Part shown: positions 41,957 through 53,949 of the stretch, one piece after another
Layout: the number at the start of each line of letters is the position of its first letter
Position numbering within the stretch: position 1 is the stretch's first letter
Assembly: GCA_022800935.1 (NCBI GenBank)
Contig: JAAWRH010000012.1
Coordinates: forward strand, 1-64,000
Direction: 5' to 3'
Length of the DNA: 64,000 bases
DNA from: Oscillospiraceae bacterium
GTDB lineage: Bacteria > Bacillota > Clostridia > Oscillospirales > Ruminococcaceae
The notes under the pieces: model-generated
Seen by the model: only the letters and a program-made list of their open reading frames with translations
Database searches by the model: none
Told to the model about the DNA's origin: nothing
Program-made: the position numbers and the translations under genes

Positions 41957-42907
41957 TTGTCCAAACATAAAAAACGATTGATAGGAGATACATCTGCTAA
42001 TTTAAGGACATCAATTATGAAAGTCATCCGAAATGATTGGCAGCTGTATTTACTCATTCTCCCTGCGGTTGTCTATGTCTTTATTTTCCATTATATTCCG
42101 ATGTACGGTGTACAAATCGCGTTTAAAGATTTCAGCACCCGTCTCGGCATATGGAATAGCCCATGGGTTGGTTTCAAGCATTTTATTCGGTTTGTTACCT
42201 ATCCCAATTTTAAAAAAATTATCTGGAACACCCTGTCGATTACGCTGTACAACCTGATGACCTATCCGATTCCTATTATCTTGGCGCTGCTTATCAATGA
42301 GCTAAACAACCAGCGTTTTCGTAAAGTGGTGCAGATGGTGAGTTATGCGCCGCATTTCGTTTCAACTGTAGTTGTCTGTTCCATGCTCATTCTTTTTACC
42401 GATAATAATAACGGACTGTTTAACCACATCATTCGGGCTTTAGGCGGGACTGGAAGCGATTGGTTAAGCAAGCCCTCTCTATTCCCCAGCCTATATGTCT
42501 GGTCAAGCGTTTGGCAGAGCGCCGGGTGGAGTACAATTATCTTCCTTGCCGCTTTGGCTGGAGTATCGCCGGAACTATATGAGGCCGCTTATATGGATGG
42601 CGCTTCCCGCTTGCAGATCATCCTGCACGTCAATATCCCGGCTCTTGCGCCTACGATTATTACAATGTTTATCATGCGTGTAGGGCAGATCATGTCTCTC
42701 GGCTTTGAAAAGATTTACCTGCTGCAAAATTCTTTGAATCTGGATGCTTCTCAAGTTATTTCCACCTATGTTTATGAAATGGGTGTGCGCAATGGGCAAT
42801 TCAGTTATGCGTCCGCTATCGACCTATTCAACACGGTCATTAATATCCTGCTGCTTCTTGTGGTCAATAAAATCAGCCAACGGAGTGCAGGCGTCGGCAT
42901 CTGGTAA
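41957..42907 (+). CDS. Sugar ABC transporter permease (LplB family), second copy
   Basis: A 316-residue permease similar in layout to the one at 34.1 kb: LYLLILPAVVYVFIFHYIPM, then YGVQIAFKDFSTRLGIWNSP, EAA loop EAAYMDGASRLQIILHVNIPA, and a C-terminus ending KISQRSAGVGIW. The TTG start at 41957 is seven bases after AGGAGGG. Codon and base usage are AT-richer than at 34 kb, so this is not a recent local duplication. It is followed after 13 bases by its LplC partner. Confidence 0.93.
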   Translation: MSKHKKRLIGDTSANLRTSIMKVIRNDWQLYLLILPAVVYVFIFHYIPMYGVQIAFKDFSTRLGIWNSPWVGFKHFIRFVTYPNFKKIIWNTLSITLYNLMTYPIPIILALLINELNNQRFRKVVQMVSYAPHFVSTVVVCSMLILFTDNNNGLFNHIIRALGGTGSDWLSKPSLFPSLYVWSSVWQSAGWSTIIFLAALAGVSPELYEAAYMDGASRLQIILHVNIPALAPTIITMFIMRVGQIMSLGFEKIYLLQNSLNLDASQVISTYVYEMGVRNGQFSYASAIDLFNTVINILLLLVVNKISQRSAGVGIW

Positions 42908-42920
42908 AGGAGGAAGCAGA

Positions 42921-43853
42921 TTGAATATCCAAAGAACCAATACACATCGAATCAAAAAGACAAGAGCTGACAGAATGTTCGATTTCTGCAATGTTTTCAT
43001 CATGCTTGTTCTGATTATAATCATGGCATATCCGCTTTATTTTATTGTTATTGCGTCCTTATCCGATCCTTATAAGGTTATCAATGGAAAGGTATACCTA
43101 TGGCCGGCTGATTTTACGCTTGATTCCTATATCAACGTCTTTCGGGAAAGCAGTATCTGGAAGGGGTATTACAATACCATTAGGTATACTTTTTGGGGAA
43201 CTTTGTTCAATCTGGCATTGACTATCCCGGCAGCTTATATCTTATCTAAAAAGAAGCTGGCTGGTCGGAAATTTCTTTCCTTCTATTTTCTGATCCCCAT
43301 GTACTTTAGCGGAGGCTTGGTCCCCACTTATTTGCTGGTAAATAATATTGGGTTGATGAACAAGCCCTATACCTTGATCTTCCTAGGAGGAATTAGTATC
43401 TATAACCTGATCGTTACCCGCATTTTTTTTCAGACCTCCATACCAGAGGAGCTGTATGAGAGCGCTAGTATGGATGGAGCATCCCATTTTCGAGTGTTCT
43501 TCCAGATAGCTATGCCACTTGCCAAGCCTATCATTGCTGTTATGGCGTTATACTATGCAGTCGCCCACTGGAATAGTTATTTTAACGCGCTCATCTACAT
43601 ATCGAACGACGCCTATCAGCCTCTGCAGATTGTACTGCGCAACATTCTTATCAATAATCAGATGCTGCTTGTCGGTATGGACACTTCCGCTCTAAGCGCT
43701 GATGAGGCGCTGGCAGCCGCCCGAAGACAATACATGGCTCAGGGAATGAAATATGCTCTAATTTTTGTATCTTCTGCGCCGTTGCTTGTCGCTTATCCGT
43801 TTGTACAAAAGCACTTTGTCAAGGGGGTAATGATAGGCTCACTCAAAGGATGA
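42921..43853 (+). CDS. Sugar ABC transporter permease (LplC/YtcP family), second copy
   Basis: A 310-residue six-helix permease. It contains the first helix VFIMLVLIIIMAYPLYFIVI, the coupling loop ESASMDGASHFRVFFQIAMP and the terminal YPFVQKHFVKGVMIGSLKG. The TTG start at 42921 follows AAAGGAGG by seven bases; an open frame reaches further up through the first permease but is not conserved. The cognate binding-protein gene comes next and is truncated, so this importer is probably inactive or uses another binding protein. Confidence 0.92.
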   Translation: MNIQRTNTHRIKKTRADRMFDFCNVFIMLVLIIIMAYPLYFIVIASLSDPYKVINGKVYLWPADFTLDSYINVFRESSIWKGYYNTIRYTFWGTLFNLALTIPAAYILSKKKLAGRKFLSFYFLIPMYFSGGLVPTYLLVNNIGLMNKPYTLIFLGGISIYNLIVTRIFFQTSIPEELYESASMDGASHFRVFFQIAMPLAKPIIAVMALYYAVAHWNSYFNALIYISNDAYQPLQIVLRNILINNQMLLVGMDTSALSADEALAAARRQYMAQGMKYALIFVSSAPLLVAYPFVQKHFVKGVMIGSLKG

Positions 43854-43935: not shown

Positions 43936-44355
43936 ATGAAAACAAGGCTTCGTTCCCTGATATCACTGCTCATAGGCACATCTCTGTTGTTGAGCGCATG
44001 CAGTCAATCCCCTCAATCTGCTGAATCGTCTGCACCGCCCGTATCTTCAGCCCCGGCTTCCCAGTCCTCCAGCGAATCACAGTCCCAGTCAGAGACAGCT
44101 GCCCCTGAAGAAACCTATGATTATACGGATTACCGTGCTCACAGCCAGTTTCCTTTGACCAAACAAACTCCCCTGACGCTTGCCGTCCGCCGGGAGACAG
44201 GCTCCACATTTTGCTACGCCGAAGCGTCCGCCATCCGGCGGGATTTTACAGAGACGATGCCCTATGGCTTCGCTTGCTGGGAAAACGATATGCCGGTGGG
44301 GCTGATTAGCTGCTATATCTTAGAGCCCCTGCTTACAGTCCCGCACACTGTTTGA
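43936..44355 (+). pseudogene. Truncated LplA-type solute-binding lipoprotein
   Basis: The first 85 or so codons are a normal binding-protein start: signal peptide with lipobox LSAC (Cys 22), Ser/Gln/Pro linker, and the domain entry FPLTKQTPLTLAVRRE, parallel to FPLTDKP-type starts of the family. After that the homology stops and about 50 unrelated residues (GSTFCYAEASAIRRDF... to LLTVPHTV) lead to a stop at 44355. Full-length relatives have about 550 residues, so over 450 are missing, consistent with a deletion. The ribosome site (AGGAGG before ATG 43936) and position after LplC are intact. If made, the product would be a short lipoprotein unable to bind sugar. Confidence 0.75.
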
Positions 44356-45683: not shown

Positions 45684-45727
45684 TTTACTGGATATTTTCG
45701 TTGGCAGCAGAATGGAGGACGATTTTC

Positions 45728-46663
45728 TTGCCGCTTTTCATCACAAACATTCAGAGGTGTTCCTTCCACGACGGACCCGGAATCCGGACCACCGTTTTTT
45801 TAAAGGGCTGCTCTTTGCGCTGTTTTTGGTGCCATAATCCGGAAACGCTCCACAGCGGCTATGGGCTCAGGTATATTTCTTCCCGCTGCATTCAGTGCGA
45901 GGCTTGTGTGGAGGCCTGCCGCCAGGCGTCCGGACTGGATTGCCGGTCTCCCTGGCAGCTGGTGGAATATGCGAAAACCCAGGACGGCTGCTCCGGATGC
46001 GGGCAGTGTGTAAGCTGCTGTCCCTCCCAGGCTCTGGTGTCCACGGCAAAGGCATATGAAAGGGAGGAGCTTCTGCCCCTGCTGCTGGCGGACCGGGCCT
46101 ATTACGAAAGCAGCGGCGGCGGGGTGACATTTTCCGGAGGGGAACCGCTGCTGCAGTCAGAGGAGTTGGCCCCCCTGATAGGGCTGCTGAAGAATGAGGG
46201 AATTTCCGCCGCAATCGATACGGCCGGAAATGTCCCCTGGAAAGCCTTTGAGCAGGTGCTGGAGTCTGAAAAGGGAAGGGCGGATTTGTTCCTCTTTGAC
46301 CTGAAGGCGGCGGACCCCCAGCTGCACCGGCAGATTACCGGAAGCACCAATGAGCGGATTCTGGATAACCTGGACCGCCTTTGCCGGGAAAAGGCCGCTG
46401 TCCGAATCCGCATTCCGCTGATTCCGGGGGTGAACACCACGCCGGAGGAACAGGAGCGAATGGCGGAAATTTTGGCAAGGTATCCCAATCTGGAGGGGGT
46501 GGATCTGCTGCCCTTCCATCGCACCGCCCTTTCCAAATACCGTCAGCTGGGGATGGACTATGAGGCGGGGGAGCTGAACCCCCCCGATTCCCAAACCCTG
46601 CTGCGGATTGAGCGGGAGATGAAGCAGCGGCTTTCGGTTCCGGTTGCCTGCCGGGGCCTGTGA
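45728..46663 (+). CDS. Glycyl-radical enzyme activating protein (radical SAM)
   Basis: A 311-residue activase of the PflA-like family that abstracts H from the glycine of a glycyl-radical enzyme. The sequence starts LFITNIQRCSFHDGPGIRTT, then the radical-SAM cluster CSLRCFWCHNPE, an inserted ferredoxin domain with two 4Fe-4S sets (CIQCEACVEAC and CSGCGQCVSCCP), and SGGGVTFSGGEPLLQ. The inserted clusters are typical of activases for eliminase-type glycyl-radical enzymes, in contrast to classical PflA. The TTG at 45728 is chosen because GGAGG (45714-45718) precedes it by nine bases; a TTG at 45701 lacks a ribosome site. The target enzyme is the next gene. Confidence 0.93.
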   Translation: MPLFITNIQRCSFHDGPGIRTTVFLKGCSLRCFWCHNPETLHSGYGLRYISSRCIQCEACVEACRQASGLDCRSPWQLVEYAKTQDGCSGCGQCVSCCPSQALVSTAKAYEREELLPLLLADRAYYESSGGGVTFSGGEPLLQSEELAPLIGLLKNEGISAAIDTAGNVPWKAFEQVLESEKGRADLFLFDLKAADPQLHRQITGSTNERILDNLDRLCREKAAVRIRIPLIPGVNTTPEEQERMAEILARYPNLEGVDLLPFHRTALSKYRQLGMDYEAGELNPPDSQTLLRIEREMKQRLSVPVACRGL

Positions 46664-46783: not shown

Positions 46784-48499
46784 ATGCTGTGGAAGATGAT
46801 GAAGGATGGATTGACCAAGCGTGTACAAATGGTAATGGACGGTATCTCAAAGGAGGAGCCGAAGGCTTCAACAGAGGAGCTGCTCTCCCTTTGGCGTGCC
46901 ACAGGAGAGCGGGAGGAAAACTACGCTCTGCGCAGGGGAAAATTTTTCCGCTTCTGTATGGGGAAAATTGAAACCCCCATCTATGAAGGGGAAAGGATTG
47001 TGGGACATTTCCCCTATAAGGAATGGAACTGCAACCGCTGCTGTCTGCCGGACCCCCTTACTCCCGAAGAACGGGAACAGGCCTTTGCCCGGATTGACAA
47101 GGAATTTATGGCCCGTACCGGCCGGGACAGCGTTCCGGACTTTCAAAAATGGCGGGACGTTACCCTGGGCGGAATGCTCCCTGACGGTACCGACGGGGTC
47201 AATCCCCTGACCTATCTGGCCCTTAACGCCACCCGCCGTCTGAAAATTTTCCAGCCAAAGCTCAACGCCCGCATATGGGAGGGCTCGCCGGAGGAATATG
47301 TCGCCGCCTGCGTCCAAACAGCCCGGCAGAACTGCGGGCCGATGATTTACTGCGACGAGGTTTCCATTGCGGCGCTGGAAAAGTACGGTTATTCCCGGCA
47401 GGACGCCAGAAACTATGGCATTATCGGCTGCTATGAGATGGCCGCCCCAGGGAAAGAGTGCGGGAATCCAATGGGCGGCGCTGTCAATGTGGGTAAATTT
47501 TTGGAGCTTGCCATGAACAACGGCGCTTTTATCTCAACCGGGGAGCAGATCGGTCCCCAGACCGGGTATCTCGACCAATTTGAGAATCTGGACCAGCTGA
47601 GGCAGGCATTTCAGAAACAGACTGAATTCGCCTTGGATGTGCTGGAGCAGCGTTTGATTTACGATGCCCTGCGCCACAGCCTGCTTATCCCCCATGCCCT
47701 GGAATCTGTATTGGTGGAGGGATGTCTACAAAGCGGAAGGGACGTGTCCCAATCCGGGGCAAGGCTGACCACCGTAGGGATGCGGATGAGCGGCCTGGTG
47801 CAGACGGCGGACAGCTTTACCGCACTGCAAAAGCTGGTGTTCCAGGAAAAGGTTCTGCCGGTGGAACGTTTGTGGGCGGGAATCCGCACCAACTTTGCCC
47901 AGGACGAGGTGCTCCGGGCAATGCTTGTCAACCGTGCCCCAAAATACGGCAACGACTGTGATGAGGCGGACCAGATGGTCCGGGAGCTGGGACAGTATCT
48001 GTGCGGGGAGATTCAGAAAAGGCATCACATTTCCGGCGCACCCCTTCGTCCGGGGCTGTTCAGCTTTTTACAGTTTATGAATGGAGAGCGCTGTTCCGCC
48101 CTGCCCGACGGCCACAGGGAGGGCCAGCCCTTTGCCAACGGGGTCAGCCCGACCCATGGAGCGGACCAGCAGGGTCTGACCGCCATGCTGCGCTCCGCCG
48201 CCAAGCTGGACTACTCCCTTTCCAATAATGCCGCCACCCTGGATGTAAAGCTTCCGCTGGACCTGTTCTCCGGCGAAAACGGGGTGAAAGCTTTGTCCCA
48301 AATCCTGCGGACCTTTTTCCGGGAAGGCGAGATGCAGGTCCAGCTCTATTTCCTCTCTGAGCGGGAGCTGCGGGAGGCCCAGAAGCGGCCGGAAGAGTAT
48401 GCGGGGCTGATTGTCCGGGTGACCGGCTACAGCGCCTACTTTACCGAGCTGGATAAAAACCTTCAGGAGGAAGTTATCATGAGGACAGCCGCATTTTAG
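46784..48499 (+). CDS. Compact glycyl-radical enzyme (PFL/eliminase family, 571 aa)
   Basis: The glycyl-radical loop IVRVTGYSAYFTELDKNLQEE is intact, with Gly 548. The active-site Cys is C216 in IIGCYEMAAPG, a GCxE motif with the catalytic Glu of dehydratase/lyase-type members. The Cys-to-Gly distance (332) equals that of choline trimethylamine-lyase CutC (489 and 821). The N-terminal LRRGKFFRFCMGKIETPIYE-GERIVG block is also family-like, but it is followed almost at once by the VTLGGMLPDGTDGVNPLTYL block, which normally lies about 250 residues further on. Family members are usually 750-850 aa, so a large internal part of the first half-barrel is missing without a frameshift. ATG 46796 is an alternative start. 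The activase lies 120 bases upstream. Confidence 0.85.
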   Translation: MLWKMMKDGLTKRVQMVMDGISKEEPKASTEELLSLWRATGEREENYALRRGKFFRFCMGKIETPIYEGERIVGHFPYKEWNCNRCCLPDPLTPEEREQAFARIDKEFMARTGRDSVPDFQKWRDVTLGGMLPDGTDGVNPLTYLALNATRRLKIFQPKLNARIWEGSPEEYVAACVQTARQNCGPMIYCDEVSIAALEKYGYSRQDARNYGIIGCYEMAAPGKECGNPMGGAVNVGKFLELAMNNGAFISTGEQIGPQTGYLDQFENLDQLRQAFQKQTEFALDVLEQRLIYDALRHSLLIPHALESVLVEGCLQSGRDVSQSGARLTTVGMRMSGLVQTADSFTALQKLVFQEKVLPVERLWAGIRTNFAQDEVLRAMLVNRAPKYGNDCDEADQMVRELGQYLCGEIQKRHHISGAPLRPGLFSFLQFMNGERCSALPDGHREGQPFANGVSPTHGADQQGLTAMLRSAAKLDYSLSNNAATLDVKLPLDLFSGENGVKALSQILRTFFREGEMQVQLYFLSERELREAQKRPEEYAGLIVRVTGYSAYFTELDKNLQEEVIMRTAAF

Positions 48500-52563: not shown

Positions 52564-53949
52564 TCAGTTCCCGTTGGGGCCCGTGGGCCCTGTAGCGCCG
52601 CGGGGGAGCACAAGGTTCAGTACAAAGTTTGGTGCTGCGCCGGTAATGGTGGCCGATGCGGCTGAACCTGGCGCGCCGGTCTGAACCGTTCCGATGGTCA
52701 ATGTTGGAGCGGCTCCGGCAGGTCCGGTGGCTCCGGAGGGTCCGGTAGGCCCGGCAGGTCCGGTGGCTCCGGAGGGCCCGGTAGGTCCGGCAGGTCCGGT
52801 GGCTCCGGAGGGTCCGGTAGGCCCGGCAGGTCCGGTGGCTCCGGAGGGCCCGGTAGGTCCGGTAGGCCCGGCAGGTCCGGTGGCCCCGGAGGGTCCGGTA
52901 GGCCCGGCAGGTCCGGTGGCTCCGGTGGCTCCGGAGGGTCCGGTAGGCCCGGCAGGTCCGGTGGCTCCGGTGGCTCCGGAGGGTCCGGTAGGCCCGGCAG
53001 GTCCGGTGGCTCCGGAGGGCCCGGTAGGTCCGGCGGGTCCGGTGGCTCCAGAGGGTCCAGTAGGCCCGGCAGGTCCGGTGGCTCCAGAGGGTCCAGTAGG
53101 TCCGGCAGGTCCGGTGGCTCCGGAGGGCCCGGTAGGTCCGGTAGGCCCGGCAGGTCCGGTGGCTCCAGAGGGTCCAGTAGGCCCGGCAGGTCCAGCGGAA
53201 CCCTGAGGTCCCTGCGGACCTGTAGCGCCTTGGGTTCCAGCGGGACCCTCAGGTCCCTGCGGACCTGTAGCGCCTTGGGCTCCAGCGGGACCCTGAGGTC
53301 CCTGCGGACCTGTAGCGCCTTGGGCTCCGGCGGGACCCTGAGGTCCCTGCGGACCTGTAGCGCCTTGGGTTCCAGCGGGACCCTGAGGTCCTTGCGGACC
53401 TGTGACGCCCTGGGCTCCGGCGGGTCCCTGAGGTCCTTGCGGACCTGTGGCGCCCTGGGCTCCGGCGGGTCCCTGAGGTCCTTGCGGACCTGTGACGCCC
53501 TGGGCCCCAGCGGGTCCCTGAGGTCCTTGCGGACCTGTGGCGCCCTGGGCTCCGGCGGGTCCCTGAGGTCCTTGCGGACCTGTGGCGCCCTGGGTTCCGG
53601 CGGGGCCCTGAGGTCCTTGCGGACCTGTGGCGCCCTGGGCCCCAGCAGGTCCCTCAGGTCCTTGCGGGCCTGTGACGCCCTGGGCTCCAGCAGGACCCTG
53701 GGGGCCGGGGAATCCCTGGAGTCCCTGAGGTCCAACAGGTCCCTGGGGACCGCGGGGACCCGTTGGTCCAGGCACCCCTTGGGGGCCTTGGGGGCCCATA
53801 GGTCCCTGTGCCCCTACACATGGACACGGGCACGAACAGGGCGGCACAGGATGTTCCGGAGGCATTGGAGGAGGACAGCAGGACGGCCGTCTGTCCGAGC
53901 TGTTTCCTCCATTATAAGGGTAAACCTTTACGCGCTCATAATCATACAT
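52564..53949 (-). CDS. Collagen-like (Gly-X-Y) spore-surface protein, BclA-like
   Basis: A 461-residue protein. A short N-terminal region ([15 protein letters not shown]... with Cys-Pro-rich [21 protein letters not shown]) precedes about 370 residues of unbroken Gly-X-Y triplets starting [16 protein letters not shown], first in [15 protein letters not shown] units, then in [12 protein letters not shown] units. The C-terminal 45 residues ([20 protein letters not shown] to [20 protein letters not shown]) are the typical globular end seen in clostridial collagen-like proteins. BclA-type proteins form hair-like filaments of the exosporium; the Thr-rich triplets are O-glycosylation sites. AAAGGAAAA lies before the ATG. 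A glycosyltransferase gene lies 56 bases upstream on the same strand. Confidence 0.92.
52720..53195 (-). repeat. Tandem 36-base coding repeats ([12 protein letters not shown] units)
   Basis: About 13 near-identical units, with occasional 9-base insertions that add GAT or GPT triplets. Third-position changes are few, suggesting recent expansion by slippage or recombination. Confidence 0.9.
53196..53700 (-). repeat. Tandem 45-base coding repeats ([15 protein letters not shown] units)
   Basis: About 11 units of 45 bases with small variations (ATG/VTG, AGA/AGT, Q/E). They encode the N-terminal half of the collagen-like stalk and are a different repeat type from the neighbouring 36-base units. 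Confidence 0.9.

Follow-up and report, generated by a model that had tools for sequence, protein, structure and literature searches.

A clean in-frame 525-bp deletion in a glycyl-radical enzyme gene of an Oscillospiraceae bacterium

The window (i.e. the whole stretch of 64,000 nucleotides analyzed, from contig JAAWRH010000012.1 of an Oscillospiraceae bacterium of the gut) carries a gene for a radical-SAM activase and, beside it on the same strand, an uninterrupted open reading frame for a shortened glycyl-radical enzyme (GRE). The coordinates of both genes and of the retained parts of the GRE are given in Table 1. Features of the eliminase superfamily are present, i.e. a Gly loop, a GCxE Cys loop, and the adjoining activase. 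Working from the letters alone, a first-pass annotation had pointed to a GCYE active site (C216), an RVTGYS glycine loop (G548), and a distance of 332 residues between them. All three were recovered in the 571-aa frame; the distance equals the C387-G719 spacing of a full-length orthologue, and the columns of G215-C216-Y217-E218 are nearly invariant in the family alignment. The activase, described there as intact, scored above the TIGR02494 cutoff and has kept all Cys motifs. It displayed 36 window-specific compared with 11 sister-specific residue changes, an excess that the adjoining GRE does not share.

Table 1. Position of the truncated GRE gene, its parts, and the activase gene in the window
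Feature	Position	Strand	Evidence
Radical-SAM GRE activase, all Cys motifs intact, 5' start uncertain	45701..46663	+	TIGR02494, 312.5 bits (cutoff 174.35)
Truncated GRE gene, 571 aa	46784..48499	+	ORF uninterrupted; Pfam/NCBIfam matches; orthologue alignment
Start common to orthologues (Met5 of truncated GRE)	46796	+	Orthologue alignment
Retained N-terminal block, orthologue residues 1-121	46796..47158	+	74% identity to same-genus orthologue
Deletion junction W-R-D-V (TGG CGG GAC GTT)	47150..47161	+	525 bp/175 codons of both orthologues absent, frame kept
Retained C-terminal block, orthologue residues 297-742 (beta3 onward, Cys loop, Gly-radical domain)	47159..48496	+	~86% identity
Cys loop C216-Y217-E218 (thiyl Cys and Glu)	47429..47437	+	Sequence; alignment to solved GREs and orthologue
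Codon of radical-site Gly548 in RVTGYS	48425..48427	+	Pfam; orthologue alignment

An internal, in-frame loss within the GRE had also been proposed, and Pfam matches, solved GREs, and orthologue alignments agree on it. The Gly_radical domain (PF01228) is complete (86.6 bits), and the match to the Pfam PFL-like domain (PF02901) covers profile positions 333-640 of 647 only. With nearly all solved full-length GREs, of which PDB entry 1r8w is the best match, the alignment begins only at window residue ~110-125, in most cases at 120-125. The proposed size of about 250 residues was too large. Alignment with the nearest orthologue (742 aa) puts the loss at exactly 175 codons (525 bp), which correspond to orthologue residues 122-296. 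In the window GRE, the gap falls between W-R-D125 and V126-T-L-G-G, and the junction is ambiguous within ~12 bp.

This orthologue is found in a mouse-gut MAG of the same genus (iMGMC-155, here G001; CATJCP010000172.1, L034:4974-7202). The two proteins share 83% identity over their common parts, the same adjoining activase, the GCYE and RVTGYS motifs, and the 332-residue spacing, but the G001 protein carries the 175 residues and its gene has different genes around it. The block is also present in a third orthologue (L070, genome G660), where it is 78% identical to that of G001. The block is thus common to both orthologues and to more distant full-length GREs, which makes its loss a derived state of the window lineage.

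Upstream of the G660 gene lie genes encoding GH4, FGGY kinase, Gfo/Idh/MocA, and Zn-dependent dehydrogenase proteins, and the neighbors of the window GRE are different. These sugar-catabolism-type genes suggest sugar-derived substrates for the intact clade. The G660 gene is divided between two contigs (L070:7105-7151 and the end of L080, minus strand); the break, at residues 368/381, immediately precedes the catalytic Cys, and both break ends bear unrelated tails of 47-51 bp. A mobile-element insertion or an assembly break is the probable cause; the foreign tail occurs a single time in that bin.

Both the short and the full-length form scored below every NCBIfam equivalog cutoff. For TIGR01774 (PFL2/glycerol dehydratase; cutoff 678.2), the window protein reached 348.2 and the full-length orthologue 468.5, and both were far below the cutoffs of the CutC, HypD, and sulfopropanediol dehydratase equivalogs. 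The best solved matches, in sequence as well as fold, were the B12-independent glycerol dehydratase of Clostridium butyricum (1r8w) and 1,2-propanediol dehydratases (9rco and 5i2a). They have the radical Gly, the thiyl Cys, and the Glu in common with the window GRE, but differ from it by a full barrel and are only ~30-34% identical. In the alignment, the clade of the window GRE holds Met at the position of D447 of glycerol dehydratase (numbered as in the 2004 structure); glycerol is therefore not predicted as a substrate. Comparable in shortness are the YjjI-type GREs (TIGR04040, a 497-position model), a known kind of ~500 aa. With 11.5 bits against a cutoff of 498.3, the window GRE is not of this type; YjjI is a different family and thus provides no precedent for the internal gap.

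The ten-stranded barrel of two five-stranded halves is complete in the orthologue and incomplete in the window GRE. The lost block comprised barrel strands beta1 (orthologue residues 123-125) and beta2 (245-246, short) as well as six helices (136-155, 162-193, 198-214, 222-240, 250-263, and 269-284 in the orthologue model), after which beta3 (296-300) follows. The earlier statement that much of the first half-barrel was removed was right in kind; the extent is two of five strands plus the six helices. Four of the seven invariant columns of the family alignment lie inside the lost block (G143, G248, R249, and D251), which also holds H131, conserved at 90% or more. H131 of the orthologue aligns with H164 of glycerol dehydratase, within GHxxVDY, and motif comparison equates it with His160 of HypD. 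The HypD substitutions H160Q and D278N (D278 being located in strand beta2) each abolish activity (PMC7077986). In IslA, CutC, and HypD, part of the active site is built from residues of strands beta1 and beta2 (PMC8473560).

AlphaFold2 (AF2) returned a confident GRE model for the orthologue (pLDDT 89.3, pTM 0.91), with 1r8w as best match (TM 0.89/0.84) and with the residues of the lost block mostly at pLDDT 93-98. For the window protein, pLDDT was 79.9 and pTM 0.80; ahead of the junction most residues scored under 75, and two stretches (74-92 and 112-124) stayed under 50. Such confidence values judge a deletion only weakly. The window model matched solved GREs mostly over ~450 columns at 2-2.5 Å.

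The retained parts of the window GRE show no sign of relaxed constraint. Stops and frameshifts are absent from them, and amino-acid changes are not in excess. Between the window and G001, dN/dS came to ~0.08 for the part before the gap as well as for the part after it, an approximate value with dS above 1. Taking G660 as outgroup, 32 residue changes were window-only and 29 G001-only (p = 0.80). The same count against 21 more distant GREs yielded 11 for the window and 12 for G001, and departures at conserved outgroup columns numbered 14 for each. An old pseudogene was rejected on these equal rates of change in the window and sister GREs. As a rough bound, at most ~6% of the window branch was free of constraint, in a sample of one genome of the window's species. 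This leaves two possibilities, a deletion of recent date or a short protein that remains under constraint, of which the loss of invariant residues favors the former. If the deletion inactivated the gene, the event would be confined to approximately the final 6% of the branch. Of the description as a cleanly deleted relic, the clean deletion stands; the word relic fits solely as a name for a recent loss, since what remains of the sequence shows no sign of decay.

The locus is most likely explained by a recent, clean, in-frame deletion of 525 bp within the gene for a full-length (~746-aa) eliminase-type GRE that falls below the equivalog cutoffs. The deletion allele is probably inactive. In the intact enzyme, the adjacent radical-SAM activase would generate the radical on Gly548, from where it would move to Cys216 for H-abstraction from the substrate, with Glu218 nearby. 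The deletion fuses the start of strand beta1 to strand beta3. Gone with it are beta1, beta2, and the six helices, and also the G-R-x-D motif around strand beta2 and the conserved His. The normally buried barrel should be open. The lost strands and residues, together with the models, thus point to a loss of catalysis in the short GRE. Possibly, the deletion formed by misalignment between the similar stretches coding for beta1 (VFYGGI) and beta3 (VTLGGM), which would account for the frame being kept. In G001, these 21-bp stretches are identical at ~12 of 21 positions, and their longest exact runs are a few bases. As a counterpoint to a recent loss, decay was not directly seen, and the same picture would be expected of a short protein that is functional and constrained.

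An assembly error, i.e. a full-length true gene from which the assembler dropped 525 bp, is unlikely. The genome is fragmented (96 contigs) and the gap is seen in one genome only, but the similarity between the two flanks is limited to an imperfect stretch of 21 bp, far below usual assembly words, and the missing block is not on another contig. Across the window's own genome, the lost block was found only within two other full-length GREs, and a split gene or a piece supplied in trans was rejected on the grounds that these were the sole matches.

It is very improbable that the gene encodes a functional minimal GRE, maintained by selection, with an eight-stranded barrel in which beta3 takes the place of beta1 and with a new or smaller substrate. 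Slightly harder still to credit is the specific case in which a single in-frame deletion yielded such an eight-stranded enzyme that is still activated by its own activase. The open frame, the retained activase, the presence of the catalytic Cys, Glu, and Gly, the strong constraint on the retained parts, and a junction that unites two similar strands in register all agree with a working protein. However, invariant residues are gone together with a His that is essential in HypD, the window branch displays no burst of compensating changes, and AF2 confidence falls around the junction. The new minimal architecture considered in the first-pass annotation is also not supported by the homologues: the nearest relatives keep the block (full length in G001, present in G660), and a full-length homologue in a close relative is what that annotation had itself named as refuting. 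GRE matches traced in 61 relatives, 298 family-level, and 299 phylum-level genomes included neither another gene with this gap nor a homologue of 550-600 aa carrying it.

Candidates for a wider family of short GREs were rejected. The short frames in G768 and G749 belong to genes running off contig ends, and a 574-aa frame in G937 is a frameshifted full-length gene. By their coordinates, the short GRE frames of G209 and G908 also sit at contig ends. The G937 gene, on contig C31 (L093) and next to an activase, is broken by a frameshift that separates its first half from its second. Close orthologues were absent from 394 order-level genomes, and neither a first scan of genome contigs with the window protein nor a scan of viral contigs found relatives.

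The recent deletion matters mainly for annotation: neither a working GRE nor a new architecture should be recorded for this allele. The intact clade could merit substrate assignment. Were the short form active, neither two of the barrel strands nor the conserved His essential in HypD would be indispensable to a GRE.

Other genes were noted in the window. Two ABC sugar-type permease genes (41957-42907 and 42882-43853) precede a 139-aa ORF (43936-44355, + strand), which over its first ~75 residues aligns with the beginning of solute-binding lipoproteins of ~580 aa. This ORF, 2.4 kb from the truncated GRE, seems to be cut short as well. On the minus strand, positions 52564-53949 encode a collagen-like protein of 461 aa with long GPx/GxxGPxGPxG repeats.
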